A stretch of DNA of 16,923 nt from positions 1-16,923 of the forward strand of contig JAFKJZ010000181.1 in assembly GCA_017305815.1 (NCBI GenBank). Direction: 5' to 3'. A program made the position numbers and the translations under genes. The stretch comes from Hyphomicrobiales bacterium. Its GTDB lineage: Bacteria; Pseudomonadota; Alphaproteobacteria; Rhizobiales; Kaistiaceae. Shown one piece after another: positions 3,705 through 15,918 of the stretch (within the stretch, counting starts at the first letter, position 1; every line of letters begins with the position of its first letter). Under the pieces are notes generated by a model. The model was not told where the DNA came from. It saw only the letters and a program-made list of their open reading frames with translations, and did no database searches.

Positions 3705-5270
3705 ATGTCTCTCCTGAAAAACTTTGTCACCGTCGGTGGCTCGACGACATCGAGCCGGCTTCTCGGCTTCGTGCGCGACATGTTCATGGCGGCGGCGCTC
3801 GGCACCGGGCCGGTGGCGGACGCCTTCATGGTCGCCTTCCGCTTCCCCAACCTGTTCCGCCGGCTTTTCGCCGAGGGCGCCTTTTCCTCCGCCTTCATTC
3901 CGCTGTTCGCCGGCAAGCTCGAGGCGGAGGGCCGCGACGCCGCGAAGGAATTTGGTTCCGAGGCGCTGTCGGCCCTGTTCGCCTTCCTGATCGTGCTGAC
4001 GGTGATCGCGCTGATCGCCATGGTCCCGCTCATGTATGTGATGGCGCCCGGCTTCGTGGCAGAGCCGTCTAAATTCGATCTCGCCGTGTTGCTGACGCGG
4101 ATCTCGTTCCCCTATCTGACGCTGATCTCGCTGCTGGCGCTCTATAGCGGCGTGCTCAACGCCGAGGGCCGCTTCATGGCGGCGGCAATGGCGCCAGGCC
4201 TTCTCAACGTCGTTTTGGTGGCCGCGCTCGCCTACATCCTGTTCTATAAGCTCGAAAACACGGCCGAGGCCGGCATCCTGCTGTCATGGGCGACGCTGAT
4301 CGGCGGCGTTCTGCAACTCGCCGTCGTCGTCGTCGACGCCTGGCGGACGGGCATGCTTTTGAAGCTGCGCTGGCCGCGGCTGACCGCCGGCGTTCGGCGG
4401 CTGACGACGCTCGCCGTTCCGGGCCTCGTCGCCGGCGGCGTTACCCAGATCAACATCGTCATCGGCACGATGATCGCCTCGTTCGCGCCGGGCGCCATCG
4501 CCATCCTCGGCTATGCCGATCGGCTGTATCAGCTGCCGCTCGGCATCGTCGGCGCCACCATCGCCGTCGTCATGCTGCCCGACCTGTCGCGCCATGTCCG
4601 TTCCGGCCGCACCGACCTGGTCCATCATACCCAGAACCGCAGCCTCGAATTCGCGATGACGCTGACGCTGCCGGCGGCGATCGCGCTGTTCGTGCTGGCG
4701 AAGCCGATCGTGCAGGTGCTGTTCCAGCGCGGCGAGTTCGGCCTGGACGACACGATCGCCACCGCGCACACGCTGATGGGCTATGCCGTCGGGCTGCCGG
4801 CCTTCGTGCTGATCAAGGTGCTGTCGCCCGGCTTCTTCGCCCGCGAGGACACCAAGACGCCGATGTGGTTCGCCGCCATCGGCGTCGCCGTCAACATCAT
4901 CGGCTCGCTGGCGCTGTTCCCGTCGCTGACCTATGTCGGCATCGCCATCGCGACCAGCATTTCGGGCTGGGTCAACGCGGCCCTGCTCGCCTGGGCCCTG
5001 CACCGGCGCGGTCATTTCGAGTTCGACGACAAGGTGAAGCGCAACATGCCGATGGTGCTCGTCGCCGCCATGGCGATGGGGCTCTCCGTCTTCCTCGCCG
5101 CCTGGTGGGCAGAGCCCTATTTCGCCGATCAGCGCATCCTGTTCCGCGCGGTGGCGATGGGCACGATCTGCGGTATCGGGCTGGTGCTGTTCGCGCTCTT
5201 CTGCCAGCTGACCGGCGTCGTCCATTTCGGCGCGATCGTCGGCAAGCTGCGCAACCGCGGCCGTCGCTGA
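3705..5270 (+). CDS. murJ: Lipid II flippase MurJ (MviN family)
   Basis: MurJ is an inner-membrane flippase of the MOP superfamily that moves lipid II to the periplasm for peptidoglycan synthesis. The protein (521 residues from this start; E. coli has 511) is hydrophobic throughout, consistent with the family's 14 membrane helices. Near the N-terminus the signature DAF.VAFRFPNLFRRLFAEGAFS is clear. With the start at 3705 the charged residues fall at R18, R24, D39 and R52, the same numbers as the functionally essential residues of E. coli MurJ, which strongly supports this start. An in-frame ATG at 3675 would add ten residues, but it repeats the MSLL motif and lies directly behind a perfect GC palindrome. 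AGGTGG at 3697-3702 is a close but usable Shine-Dalgarno. trpS follows after 60 bp. Confidence 0.95.
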   Translation: MSLLKNFVTVGGSTTSSRLLGFVRDMFMAAALGTGPVADAFMVAFRFPNLFRRLFAEGAFSSAFIPLFAGKLEAEGRDAAKEFGSEALSALFAFLIVLTVIALIAMVPLMYVMAPGFVAEPSKFDLAVLLTRISFPYLTLISLLALYSGVLNAEGRFMAAAMAPGLLNVVLVAALAYILFYKLENTAEAGILLSWATLIGGVLQLAVVVVDAWRTGMLLKLRWPRLTAGVRRLTTLAVPGLVAGGVTQINIVIGTMIASFAPGAIAILGYADRLYQLPLGIVGATIAVVMLPDLSRHVRSGRTDLVHHTQNRSLEFAMTLTLPAAIALFVLAKPIVQVLFQRGEFGLDDTIATAHTLMGYAVGLPAFVLIKVLSPGFFAREDTKTPMWFAAIGVAVNIIGSLALFPSLTYVGIAIATSISGWVNAALLAWALHRRGHFEFDDKVKRNMPMVLVAAMAMGLSVFLAAWWAEPYFADQRILFRAVAMGTICGIGLVLFALFCQLTGVVHFGAIVGKLRNRGRR

Positions 5271-5330: not shown

Positions 5331-6384
5331 ATGACTGAATTCAAGACGCGCATCTTCTCCGGCGTCCAGCCGACCGGCAATCTGCATCTCGGCAACTATC
5401 TCGGCGCGATCGTCAATTTCGTCGCGCTGCAGGAAGCCAATGAGTGCATCTACTGCGTCGTCGACATGCACGCGATCACCGTCTGGCAGGAGCCGGCCGA
5501 GCTGACGCGGCAGATCCGCGAGGTCACGGCCGCCTTCGTCGCCGCCGGCATCGACCCGGTGAAGCACGTCGTCTTCAACCAGAGCCAGGTTTCGGCCCAT
5601 GCCGAGCTGGCCTGGATCTTCAACTGCGTCGCGCGCATCGGCTGGATGAACCGCATGACGCAGTTCAAGGACAAGGCCGGCAAGGACAAGGAGAACGCCT
5701 CGCTTGGCCTGCTCGCCTATCCGAGCCTGATGGCCGCCGACATCCTCGCCTACCAGGCGACGCATGTGCCCGTCGGCGAGGACCAGAAGCAGCACCTCGA
5801 GCTGACGCGCGATATCGCCCAGAAGTTCAACAACGACTATGCCGAGTCGATCGCCGCGCATGGTTTCGGCGACGCGTATTTCCCGATCACGGAGCCGGTC
5901 ATCACCGGGCCGGCCACCCGCATCATGTCGCTGCGCGACGGTTCGAAGAAGATGTCGAAGTCGGATCCGTCTGATTATTCGCGCATCAACCTGGCGCATC
6001 AACCTGGCCGACGACGCCGACGCGATCGCGCAGAAGATCCGCAAGGCCAAGACCGACGCCGAGCCGCTTCCCGGCGAGGCCGAGGGCCTGAAGGGCCGTC
6101 CCGAGGCCGACAACCTCGTCGGCATCTATGCCGCGCTCTCCGGTCTGACCAAGGACGACGTGCTGCGCGAGTTTGGCGGCCAGCAGTTCTCCGCTTTCAA
6201 GCCGGCGCTCGCCGATCTCGCGGTCGACAAGCTTGGTCCGGTCGGCGGCGAGATGCGCCGCCTGATGGCCGATCCCGGCCATATCGACGCGATCCTCGCC
6301 GATGGCGCGGCGCGCGCCGACGCGATCGCGCGCCCGATCCTCGACGGCGTCAAGGACATCGTCGGCTTCATCCGCCGCAAGTAG
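5331..6384 (+). pseudogene. trpS: Tryptophanyl-tRNA synthetase TrpS, frameshifted by a 13-bp tandem duplication
   Basis: TrpRS charges tRNA-Trp with tryptophan; it is a cytoplasmic class I synthetase and normally essential. The N-terminal part is intact: [17 protein letters not shown] holds the HIGH variant (H19-L20-G21-N22), and K207-M208-S209-K210-S211 is the KMSKS loop. After L221 a perfect 13-bp direct repeat (5981-5993 and 5994-6006) shifts the frame. The correct sequence resumes in the next frame ([15 protein letters not shown]...) and ends at TAG 6382-6384. Deleting one repeat gives 346 residues, normal for the family. As written, the original frame has no stop until 6938 and runs through uspA. 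This may be a real mutation or an assembly or sequencing error. The lost part is the C-terminal helical tRNA-binding domain, so the product as written should not work. Confidence 0.93.
5981..6008 (+). repeat. 13-bp tandem direct duplication inside trpS
   Basis: The unit gcgcatcaacctg occurs twice with no gap (5981-5993, 5994-6006), and period-13 identity continues two more bases to 6008. The homologous protein order is SRINL followed directly by ADDADA, so one copy is extra. Thirteen is not a multiple of three, so the reading frame shifts. Replication slippage, or a collapse or duplication during assembly, would leave this pattern. Confidence 0.97.
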
Positions 6385-6396
6385 GGCCTCCCCGGG

Positions 6397-6432
6397 GCCA
6401 TCCGGCGCTTGCCGGGCGGCCCGCCGGATGGC
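6397..6432. repeat. 11-bp perfect inverted repeat between trpS and uspA
   Basis: GCCATCCGGCG at 6397-6407 pairs perfectly with CGCCGGATGGC at 6422-6432 around a 14-nt loop, inside which GCC and GGC (6411-6413, 6418-6420) can pair again. The stem begins 12 nt after the trpS stop and ends 11 nt before the uspA ATG. No T-run follows, so it is not a classic intrinsic terminator. The purine-rich GGATGG at 6426-6431, the best ribosome-site candidate for uspA, lies in the 3' arm and would be hidden when the stem forms. Confidence 0.6.
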
Positions 6433-6443
6433 AGCATTGCAGC

Positions 6444-6938
6444 ATGCTGATGAAGCGCAAGAGCACGGAAACGGGTCACCGCCGCAAGTTTCTGGCGGTG
6501 ATCGACGACACGCCCGAATGCTCGCGCGCCGTCATCTACGGCGCCCGGCGCGCCGACCGCACCAGCGGCGGCCTCGTCCTGCTCTATGTGATCGAGCCGA
6601 CCGGCTTCCAGCACTGGATCGGCGTCGAGAACATCATGCGGGCCGAGGCGATGGACGAGGCCGAGGCGGCGCTCGGCCGCTTCGCCGATCTCGCCCGCCG
6701 CCATTCCTCGATCGAGCCGGAACTGGTGATTCGCGAAGGCACCCGCGCCGAGCAGATCCCGGCGCTGATCGAGGGCGACGAGGACATCGCCATTCTCGTC
6801 CTGGCGGCCGGCACCGACAAGGAAGGGCCGGGACCGCTGGTTTCCTCGATCGCCGGCAAGCTCGCGGCGACCTTCCCGGTGCCGATCACCATCGTGCCTG
6901 GCACGCTTTCCGACGACGACATCGCCGCCATCGCTTGA
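6444..6938 (+). CDS. Universal stress protein (UspA family)
   Basis: This is a single-domain universal stress protein of 164 residues, a small cytoplasmic nucleotide-binding alpha/beta fold whose exact role in this lineage is not established. Seen: an N-terminal [15 protein letters not shown] strand and loop typical of the family, a [11 protein letters not shown] strand, and a C-terminal region [20 protein letters not shown] followed by VPITIVPG. That last region corresponds to the ATP-binding G-x2-G-x9-G(S/T) motif but is degenerate, with S-S where G-S is usual; I recall similar sequences in rhizobial homologues, so this looks like a subfamily trait. Two starts are possible (ATG 6444 and ATG 6450), both with weak ribosome sites. 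Because of the trpS frameshift, the broken trpS frame runs into this gene in phase; it should nonetheless be treated as a separate gene. Confidence 0.85.
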
Positions 6939-7014: not shown

Positions 7015-7020
7015 GCCAAT

Positions 7021-7663: not shown

Positions 7664-8326
7664 ATGAACCTGCTCGCCATCGATACCGCGCTCGAAAACT
7701 GCTCCGTTGGTCTCGCGACCGGCGGAGTCGTCTTCTCGCGCGTCGAAACCATCGGCAAGGGCCATGCCGAGCGGCTGATGCCGGAGATCGCGGCGCTGCT
7801 CGCCGAGGCCGGTGTGTCGGCGGCGAGCCTCGACCGCATCGTCGTCTCGATCGGCCCGGGTTCGTTCACCGGCCTGCGCGTCGGGATTTCGGCGGCGCGC
7901 GGCCTCGCGCTCGTCCACCGTATCCCCGTCGTCGGTGTCGGCACGCTGCAGGTCCATGCGGCGCTGGCGAAGCGCGAGCGCGGGGAGGTCGCCGATCGGC
8001 CGATCCTGGCGCTGCTGCCGGCGCGTGGCGACGATCTCTACGGCCAGCTCTTCTCCGCGAATGCCGAGCCGGTCGGCGAGGCGGTGCTTGAAGCCATGCC
8101 GTTCTTTGCCGAGCTGGCGGCGCAGTCGGGCGCGGACCTTGCCGGCGCCGGCGCGGCGCGGCTCGGATCGTCGGGACGGATCCTCCATGACCGCTCGGCT
8201 CCCGATATCGCGACCCTGCTGGAGCTCGGCGCGGCGCTCGATCCCGCCGGTCATCCGCCGAAGCCGCTCTATGTCCGCCCTCCCGACGCCAAGCCGCAGC
8301 TTCACAAGGGAATTGCGCGCCGATGA
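7664..8326 (+). CDS. tsaB: tRNA threonylcarbamoyladenosine biosynthesis protein TsaB
   Basis: TsaB is the inactive ASKHA-fold partner of TsaD in the complex that makes t6A at position 37 of ANN-decoding tRNAs. The 220 residues start MNLLAIDTALENCSVGL, the expected N-terminal actin-like strand. They contain VSIGPGSFTGLRVGISAARGLAL, the most conserved TsaB segment. The stop overlaps the rimI start in an ATGA arrangement (8323-8326), so the two are translationally coupled. tsaB-rimI pairing is common in bacteria. A GGGG run just before ATG 7664 is the likely ribosome site. Confidence 0.95.
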   Translation: MNLLAIDTALENCSVGLATGGVVFSRVETIGKGHAERLMPEIAALLAEAGVSAASLDRIVVSIGPGSFTGLRVGISAARGLALVHRIPVVGVGTLQVHAALAKRERGEVADRPILALLPARGDDLYGQLFSANAEPVGEAVLEAMPFFAELAAQSGADLAGAGAARLGSSGRILHDRSAPDIATLLELGAALDPAGHPPKPLYVRPPDAKPQLHKGIARR

Positions 8327-8811
8327 TGGATATGTTGTTGCGGCCTCGCATCATCCTGGACGCCGCCGAGGCGGAGGATGCCGAGGCGTTGGCCGAGATC
8401 CATGCCACCGGTTTCCGGCGCGGCTGGAGCGCCGACGAGATCGACGCGCTGATCGCCGACAAGACGGTGAGCAGCCATGTGCTGCGGCGCGAATCCCTGT
8501 TCGGGGTCCGCCGGCCGCAGGGTTTCATCCTGATCCGCACCGTGGCTGACCAGGCCGAGGTGCTGACCGTCGTGGTGGCGCCCGCCGCGCGCGGCCGCGG
8601 CTATGGCCGCCGGCTGATGGAGGCGGCGCTGCGCGCGCTCTATCGCGACCTCGTGCCGGAGATCTTTCTGGAAGTCGACGAAAAGAATGCCAGCGCGGTA
8701 TCACTCTACCGCTCGCTCGGATTTGTCGAAGTGGGCCGCCGAAAGGGCTACTATGCCGAGGACCATGGTCCGGGCGGAACGGCGCTGGTGCTGCGCTTGA
8801 AGCTCCGGTGA
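8323..8811 (+). CDS. rimI: Ribosomal-protein-alanine N-acetyltransferase RimI (GNAT)
   Basis: This is a GNAT-family acetyltransferase that, by homology and context, acetylates the N-terminal alanine of ribosomal protein S18. Seen in the 162 residues: motif A, VLTVVVAPAARGRGYGRRL, with the acetyl-CoA pyrophosphate loop R90-G91-R92-G93-Y94-G95, and motif B, NASAVSLYRSLGFVEVGRRKGYY. ATG codons at 8323, 8326 and 8332 are all in frame; 8323 is chosen for the 4-bp overlap with tsaB. The N-terminus is a little longer than in E. coli RimI (148 residues). Substrate specificity is inferred from the tsaB neighbourhood. Confidence 0.9.
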   Translation: MMDMLLRPRIILDAAEAEDAEALAEIHATGFRRGWSADEIDALIADKTVSSHVLRRESLFGVRRPQGFILIRTVADQAEVLTVVVAPAARGRGYGRRLMEAALRALYRDLVPEIFLEVDEKNASAVSLYRSLGFVEVGRRKGYYAEDHGPGGTALVLRLKLR

Positions 8812-14283: not shown

Positions 14284-15918
14284 ATGGCCTTTCGCTCGAA
14301 CAGTCTGGCGGCGCCGGATCGGCCCCGCCCCATGGTACTGGCGCGAGGCTGGCGGCGGGCCGGTCTCGCCATTCTCGCCGGGGCCGGCTCGGCCCTGGCG
14401 CTGCCGCCGCTCGGCTGGTTTCCCGTCCTCTGGATCACGCTCCCGTTCCTCGTGTTCCTGCTCGACCGCGCGCCGGCCACCTCTGCCGGTGGGCTATCGC
14501 GCTTCCGCTCCGGCTTCGCCGTAGGCTGGAGCTTCGGCTTCGGCTATTTCGTCGGCGGGCTCTGGTGGATCGGCGCCGCCTTCCTCGTCGACGCGGCGGC
14601 CTTCGCCTGGCTCATGCCGCTCGCCGTTCTGGCCCTGCCGGCCGGCCTCGCCCTGTTCTGGGGGCTTGGCGCCGGCGTCGCCCGCATCGCCTGGCCGCGC
14701 GGCTGGCCCCGTATCCTCGTCCTCGCCGTCTGCCTCAGCCTGGTCGAGTGGCTGCGCGGGCATGTCCTGACCGGCTTTCCATGGAACGCCTTCGGCTATG
14801 CCATTATGCCGGTGCCCGTGATGATGCAGGTCGCCTCGCTGATCGGCGTCTGGGGCGTCACCTTCTTCGCCTTTCTCGTCGCTGCGGCGCCAATCCTGTG
14901 GTTCAGCCGCGATCCCGGCGATCGAGTTGTGGATCGTTGTGCGTTTTTTGTGATCGCCGCGCTGTTCCTGGCGGACCTCGGCTTCGGTTTTGCACGCCTC
15001 GCATCGGCCGAAACGGCAATGGTACCTGGCGTCAGGCTCCGTCTGGTGCAACCTGTGATCGCACAGGACCAAAAATGGGCCTCCGGTCGCGGCGACGAAA
15101 TTCTTGGCCGATATCTACGGTTGAGCGCAACCGGCATGGAAGAGGGAAAACCCGCCCCTTTCACCCATCTGATCTGGCCGGAAACCGCCTTTCCCTTCCT
15201 GCTCGACGAGCAGCCGAACGCGCTGGCGCTGATCGGTTCGTTCCTGCCGGACAACGCGACGTTGATCACCGGCGCCGCCCGCGGCCAGGCGGTTGTGGGC
15301 GAAGAAATCGAGCCGCGGGTTTTCAACAGCCTGCAAATAGTCGATTCCGACGGGATAGTTCGGAGCAGTTACGATAAGGTGCACTTAGTCCCATTCGGAG
15401 AATACCTGCCATTCGACAGAATTCTCCGGGGTCTCGGGATCAGTCAAATGATTGCTTTGCCGGGCGGTTTCGACGCCGGCGAACGACGGATGACGCTGGA
15501 TCTGCCGGGGGCGCCGTCCTTCAGTCCGCTCATCTGTTACGAGATTATCTTCGCCGGCGAGGTGGTCGACGGTGCCGATCGACCCGGCTGGATCGTCAAT
15601 GTCACCAATGATGGCTGGTTTGGCGATACTCCGGGCCCCTGGCAGCATCTGCATCAGGCAACCATAAGAGCGGTCGAAGAGGGCATCCCGGTAGCACGTT
15701 CTGCAAACTCAGGCGTGTCCGCAATCATCGATCCCTATGGGAACCTCTTGGCATATCTTGGAGTTGACCAAGATGGCGTTGTCGACGGTACTCTTCCAGT
15801 TGCAATAAGGCCTACAATCTATTCCAAGTATCGGGACAGTCTTTATTTCGCCTTGATCATACTCGCGATCGTTGTAGCCTCTACTGGAAGTTTCACCCGG
15901 ACTAAACAACGCAATTGA
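14284..15918 (+). CDS. lnt: Apolipoprotein N-acyltransferase Lnt
   Basis: Lnt is an inner-membrane enzyme that adds the third acyl chain to the N-terminal cysteine of lipoproteins, needed for Lol-dependent sorting to the outer membrane. The 544 residues show several N-terminal membrane helices (about 20-240), a periplasmic nitrilase domain and a C-terminal membrane helix (FALIILAIVVAS). The catalytic triad is present: E300 in LIWPETAFPF, K365 in YDKVHLVPFGEYLPF and C418 in LICYEIIF. ATG 14284 has GGGAG just upstream. The 3' half is unusual: from about 15300, GC falls to about 50%, and it counts 48% over 15721-15900, with ATA, TTA and AGA/AGG codons rare elsewhere in the window. The protein still reads as normal Lnt to its end. 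Confidence 0.95.
   Translation: MAFRSNSLAAPDRPRPMVLARGWRRAGLAILAGAGSALALPPLGWFPVLWITLPFLVFLLDRAPATSAGGLSRFRSGFAVGWSFGFGYFVGGLWWIGAAFLVDAAAFAWLMPLAVLALPAGLALFWGLGAGVARIAWPRGWPRILVLAVCLSLVEWLRGHVLTGFPWNAFGYAIMPVPVMMQVASLIGVWGVTFFAFLVAAAPILWFSRDPGDRVVDRCAFFVIAALFLADLGFGFARLASAETAMVPGVRLRLVQPVIAQDQKWASGRGDEILGRYLRLSATGMEEGKPAPFTHLIWPETAFPFLLDEQPNALALIGSFLPDNATLITGAARGQAVVGEEIEPRVFNSLQIVDSDGIVRSSYDKVHLVPFGEYLPFDRILRGLGISQMIALPGGFDAGERRMTLDLPGAPSFSPLICYEIIFAGEVVDGADRPGWIVNVTNDGWFGDTPGPWQHLHQATIRAVEEGIPVARSANSGVSAIIDPYGNLLAYLGVDQDGVVDGTLPVAIRPTIYSKYRDSLYFALIILAIVVASTGSFTRTKQRN

Follow-up and report, generated by a model that had tools for sequence, protein, structure and literature searches.

Parts of two assembler papers describe faults close to the arrangement reported here: SOAPdenovo2 is said there to often insert gaps between contigs that overlap (PMC5368935), and in Meraculous negative gaps are attributed to overlaps that defeat the k-mer graph by being too short or repetitive (PMC3158087). 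The likeness is that a short sequence closing one contig reappears at the beginning of its neighbor, and we see this, with a 13-base unit, at a gap (C1:511) in the draft genome analyzed here. Unlike those negative gaps, the repeat in trpS that concerns us has no Ns between its copies. Another described system is the bacterial TrpRS family TIGR00233, which is matched by both parts of this trpS; unlike the enzymes of that family, however, trpS as assembled is not one frame. Our analysis leads us to conclude, with a probability of roughly 85%, that the assembled sequence is wrong in having a second copy of the 13-mer, two contig ends with an overlap of about 13 bases having been set end to end, and that no living cell carries the broken gene. 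This figure also counts a flawed read or library molecule where coverage was low, which would give the same picture.

The window (the whole stretch of DNA that was analyzed, 16,923 nucleotides) is an entire contig, C351, of a draft genome of the genus Kaistia that comprises 4,211,459 bases in 719 contigs, with a completeness of 92.07% and a contamination of 5.28%. The closest named relatives of its TrpRS are mostly Kaistia proteins (P0006, P0012, P0017, and others) of 346 to 347 residues. trpS occupies positions 5331 to 6384, and the duplication shifts its frame just past the KMSKS loop, as follows.

5331..5993, + strand: trpS 5′ part, catalytic domain, in the ATG frame (TIGR00233, 247 bits, profile 2-204)
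5981..5993, + strand: GCGCATCAACCTG, copy 1, exact match
5994..6006, + strand: GCGCATCAACCTG, copy 2, exact match, abutting copy 1
5995..6384, + strand: trpS 3′ part, in the next frame, through to the regular stop codon (TIGR00233, 36.6 bits, profile 202-328)
5331..6938, + strand: nominal frame of 535 codons made by the duplication (from the ORF list), open in frame into the downstream gene and to its stop
6444..6938, + strand: intact gene, universal stress protein family (PF00582, 46.8 bits against a cut-off of 24; matched in 13 of 14 relatives)
Gene order, first half: mutS 3′ end, glnD, murJ, trpS, universal-stress-family gene, Nfu-type gene, tsaB, rimI-like gene (the names mutS, for a fragment, nfu, and rimI stand for scores under the NCBIfam cut-offs)
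Gene order, second half: fur-like gene, olsA, miaB, phoH-like gene, ybeY, CorC/HlyC-domain gene, lnt, helix-turn-helix gene (the names fur and phoH likewise stand for scores under those cut-offs)

A first-pass annotation had described a 13-bp tandem duplication at 5981..6006 that shifts the frame after the KMSKS loop, and both observations hold. On the plus strand of the window GCGCATCAACCTG is found at 5981 and 5994 only, as a direct tandem, and Tandem Repeats Finder reports 5981-6008 with a period of 13, 2.2 copies, and a 100% match, the top score among its 18 rows. The unit begins with GC and GC comes directly after it; this second GC, at 6007-6008, extends the period by two bases, giving 15 consecutive matches at distance 13. 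Only 4 of 2,000 triplet shuffles of the window contained an exact tandem repeat of any unit length from 13 to 60, so the tandem is not a chance repeat. As for the frame, a single one does not run across the TIGR00233 profile: positions 2-204 are matched in the ATG frame and positions 202-328 in the next. The 5′ part contains the KMSKS motif and clears the curated cut-off of the family (247 versus 176.75 bits); the 3′ part consists of the last 129 codons of the gene (5995-6381), and no Pfam family was matched in it.

The frame-shifted stretch of the nominal product (residues 222-371) had no homologue at an E value of ≤0.001 among 7,980 scored candidates, none of which pointed to the same frame-shifted product in another genome; the search also failed to list the window's own 535-residue frame, and it says little where gene callers drew other boundaries. 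One residue near the site deserves mention. After SRINL the window has Ala, versus Thr in five of the six proteins that reach this position. The sixth, the metagenomic protein P0002, also has Ala and yet is full length, so this substitution is unconnected to the duplication.

Comparison with relatives sets the window apart at this one point. A trpS match was obtained in 39 of 40 relatives (G021 being the one without), and loci were fetched for 29 of the 39, 13 of them from the same genus. When the two parts of the gene were searched for separately, all 29 fetched loci and all 80 named genome loci had them joined by a single copy of the 13-mer, with no second copy in any of them; 14 of the 29 relatives showed the one copy in a further comparison as well. 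The spacing of the two parts is −11 in every one of these 109 loci and +2 in the window, which alone is 13 bases longer. With two copies in the window and one in all loci examined, none of them from an identified second genome of the species, the features of a phase-variable repeat tract are lacking. The 5′ part is 91 to 98% identical to its counterpart in each of 14 relatives, and the 3′ part 77 to 94% identical in the same number, over 128 or 129 of its 129 residues. The genes to the left (the mutS end, glnD, murJ) and both trpS parts have matches in all 14 relatives; to the right of trpS the next two genes are matched in 13, the following nine in 9, and the helix-turn-helix gene in 8. One of these last eight matches spans residues 1-93 only, whereas the other gene matches cover the full query or nearly so.

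The 15 other gene pieces of the window that we compared have intact frames relative to these genomes. In an alignment with six same-genus relatives, the 13-base copy is the sole intragenic insertion missing from all six; the other base extra to the window, at 7016, lies outside genes. Gaps confined to the window's side of this alignment fall at 5270 (behind a stop codon), 7366 (a missing codon, that is, three bases, in a gap shared by two of the six relatives), 8812 and 14478 (three bases each), and 16639 (outside the genes compared). A chimera of two strains joined at this point was also considered and set aside; identity to the six relatives, taken in 500-base steps, shows no step at 5994. 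DNA conserved across species was likewise rejected as the cause of a break here: the longest exact matches to 119 loci from outside the genus begin at about 5610 to 5626, away from the repeat, and reach 69 bases at 5619, versus up to 33 bases near the repeat. The repeat site is not the most conserved part of trpS across genera.

How might such a repeat come about in an assembly? Two contigs would have ended within trpS, overlapping by 13 to 15 bases, an overlap that would fall below the assembler's overlap rule. Read pairs would have ordered the two contigs as neighbors, and they would then have been abutted with the overlap left unmerged, producing an apparent tandem duplication that shifts the frame. 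In all likelihood the organism itself carries a normal trpS with a single copy. We infer that the repeat site is itself a contig join; if the estimated gap there was zero, the fault of an unmerged overlap would yield exactly the tandem repeat seen in trpS.

The rest of the assembly offers a means of judging this. We sampled 100 more of the 719 contigs; together with the window, 80 of the 101 contain letters, 549,473 bases in all. These 80 contigs hold eight N gaps, of 4 to 67 bases, across seven contigs, so the draft was scaffolded, apparently with estimated gap lengths. Four of the eight were compared with relatives; two of these four carry surplus sequence, and one of them has an exactly repeated flank. 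This is C1:511 (498-543), where the 13-mer GCCGACGCCACGC closes the left flank and appears again two bases past a run of 18 Ns. A single copy without a gap is found in all four aligned relatives (in one of them with a one-base difference), so the 18-N gap is probably false. The stretch is 30 bases shorter in five of six genomes searched, the sixth having no match. At least once, then, this assembly leaves a 13-base overlap of contig ends unmerged, and a repeated contig-end sequence at a join of the same assembly is what an unmerged overlap in trpS leads one to look for. At C593:747 (746-772) there are 18 surplus bases, 4 of them N, relative to the two genomes, of four, that match in full; this gap has no exact flank repeat but a near repeat of 12 bases in the right flank. 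The remaining two compared gaps, C350:2165 and C1:4653, differ from their counterparts in relatives by no more than about two bases.

Some of this evidence points the other way. The copies at C1:511 are separated by Ns, and those in the window are not. At each of the two odd gaps the surplus (30 or 33 bases at C1:511 and 18 at C593:747) is a multiple of three, so by length it is compatible with a real in-frame insertion. Moreover, apart from the one in the window, the 549,473 sampled bases contain no tandem duplication whose unit is 13 to 200 bases long, so N-free duplications are not common in this assembly; a genome-wide flood of them is not seen in the 80 contigs. Seven other short tandem repeats (units of 10 and 12) were noted, and the two that were compared have the same length in five of five relatives. 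The smooth identity to relatives across 5994, the site not being the best conserved part of trpS, and the slightly raised mean dN/dS of the 3′ part given below belong on this side as well. The order of the contig list, which descends in length with long contigs interspersed, was considered as a mark of patched contigs and dropped, as rank numbers sorted by name may explain it equally well.

The alternative that fares best is a real duplication, produced when replication slipped at the two-base GC match and carried by some of the sampled cells, which are dead, dying, or reverting through loss of a copy, with the assembler having happened to take their variant. We consider this unlikely. The GC that starts the unit and the GC that follows it are what slippage would use, and in this flanking two-base match the site resembles the short tandem-duplication mutations that arise by microhomology slippage. 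The difference is that this one would knock out an essential gene for which no substitute was found. A consensus sequence normally reflects what most cells carry, and growth requires TrpRS. The want of a homologue for the frame-shifted stretch among the candidates scored also counts against it, and the fold at the repeat site is ordinary (z score of −0.18, with 73 of 200 shuffles folding equally well), so that we see no hairpin to drive slippage and set aside a hairpin-driven duplication.

A very young event would, in turn, leave the remainder of trpS without clear decay, and this is what is observed. For the 5′ part, dN/dS between the window and six relatives is 0.031 to 0.069, and among those relatives it is 0.021 to 0.100; for the 3′ part the corresponding ranges are 0.058 to 0.194 and 0.025 to 0.181, with a mean of 0.13 for the window, slightly above the 0.09 among relatives. 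Judged from these substitution patterns, both parts look constrained. The first-pass annotation had likewise seen no decay in the rest of the gene.

It had also suggested a search of the genome for a second trpS. When the draft was searched with the trpS profile, two pieces at a single locus were recovered, and a DNA search of the 92%-complete draft yielded no second gene, just short matches of 28 to 67 bases. Another PF00579 match, on contig C611, proved to be a tyrosyl-tRNA synthetase instead (TIGR00234, 266.5 bits against a cut-off of 113.8). We favor an artifact because no second trpS was found, trpS shows no clear decay, the window genes compared are unbroken, and C1:511 holds an unmerged 13-base overlap. 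Where the first-pass annotation left the event as recent or an artifact, the second choice gains from the single trpS, the lack of clear decay, and the C1:511 join, and a recent real event is less favored; its claim of an essential gene broken in the organism by the duplication finds no support. If the second copy is indeed an assembly error, the practical caution is that exact short tandem repeats that break the frame of essential genes in fragmented drafts should first be suspected as unmerged contig overlaps, and inspecting an assembly's own N gaps for repeated flanks provides a simple test that needs no reads.

Three readings in which the duplication is fixed are very unlikely: a second TrpRS hidden elsewhere, bypass, and an enzyme in two pieces. 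In the first of these, the cell relies on another TrpRS encoded in the missing part of the genome. At 92.07% completeness a gene could be absent from the draft, but each of 13 same-genus genomes has exactly one trpS match, and the 3′ part, on which selection would then be relaxed, is under roughly the constraint seen in relatives; we hold the chance of a hidden enzyme to be very slight. In an order-wide survey of 297 genomes (the present one included), 292 had a trpS match, 288 of them above the cut-off. The five genomes without one are 67 to 84% complete, save one at 96% with 6% contamination.

In the second, ribosomes would produce a working TrpRS either by a 13-base hop from a codon in one copy to its twin in the other or by a +1 shift. 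Each whole codon of the first copy does recur 13 bases further along, giving pairs that could act for take-off and landing, and the site is like the ribosomal bypass of phage T4 gene 60 in that the skipped bases would lie between identical codons. Unlike gene 60, the window has no stop codon after any take-off codon (the ATG frame is open from 5331 to 6938), no conserved arrangement (one copy in 109 of 109 loci), and no unusual structure at the site in the fold test. Translational bypass of the 13-base repeat has no support, and a fixed duplication in which TrpRS is made by such hops strikes us as highly improbable. If true, it would mean that a perfect short repeat alone suffices for tolerable bypass in an essential gene.

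Least credible of all is a trpS that is genuinely split, its two parts made separately and then assembled: both parts match TIGR00233, but the ORF-list frame that carries the 3′ part begins at ATG 5839, inside the 5′ part, and would add 52 wrong-frame residues, the two-part TrpRS matches in genus g77 lie in one frame, the trpS frame of G229 is broken by two Ns in the record, and the pieces in G023 and G181 lie on two contigs.

Other broken or short trpS records were encountered, in numbers too small for us to claim any rate. In the draft G229 (L237, near 1497) the two Ns stand just before the KMSKS codons of trpS, and the profile match falls in two frames; G023 and G181 have their trpS divided between two contigs. 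In 6 of 10 genomes searched from genus g77 (L239-L244, L248-L253) the TrpRS profile is matched in two same-frame pieces split near profile position 168, a pattern that suggests an in-frame insertion; with both matches in one frame, we did not retain g77 as a natural parallel for a split trpS. Among the best 120 TrpRS proteins listed, four are shorter than 330 residues, and two of these (P0015 and P0074) end within SDPSDYSR, close to the window's repeat. Elsewhere in the window, lnt (14284-15918) and tsaB with the rimI-like gene (7664-8811) show lower likeness among Kaistia species than do most of their neighbors (70 to 83% for the six nearest).
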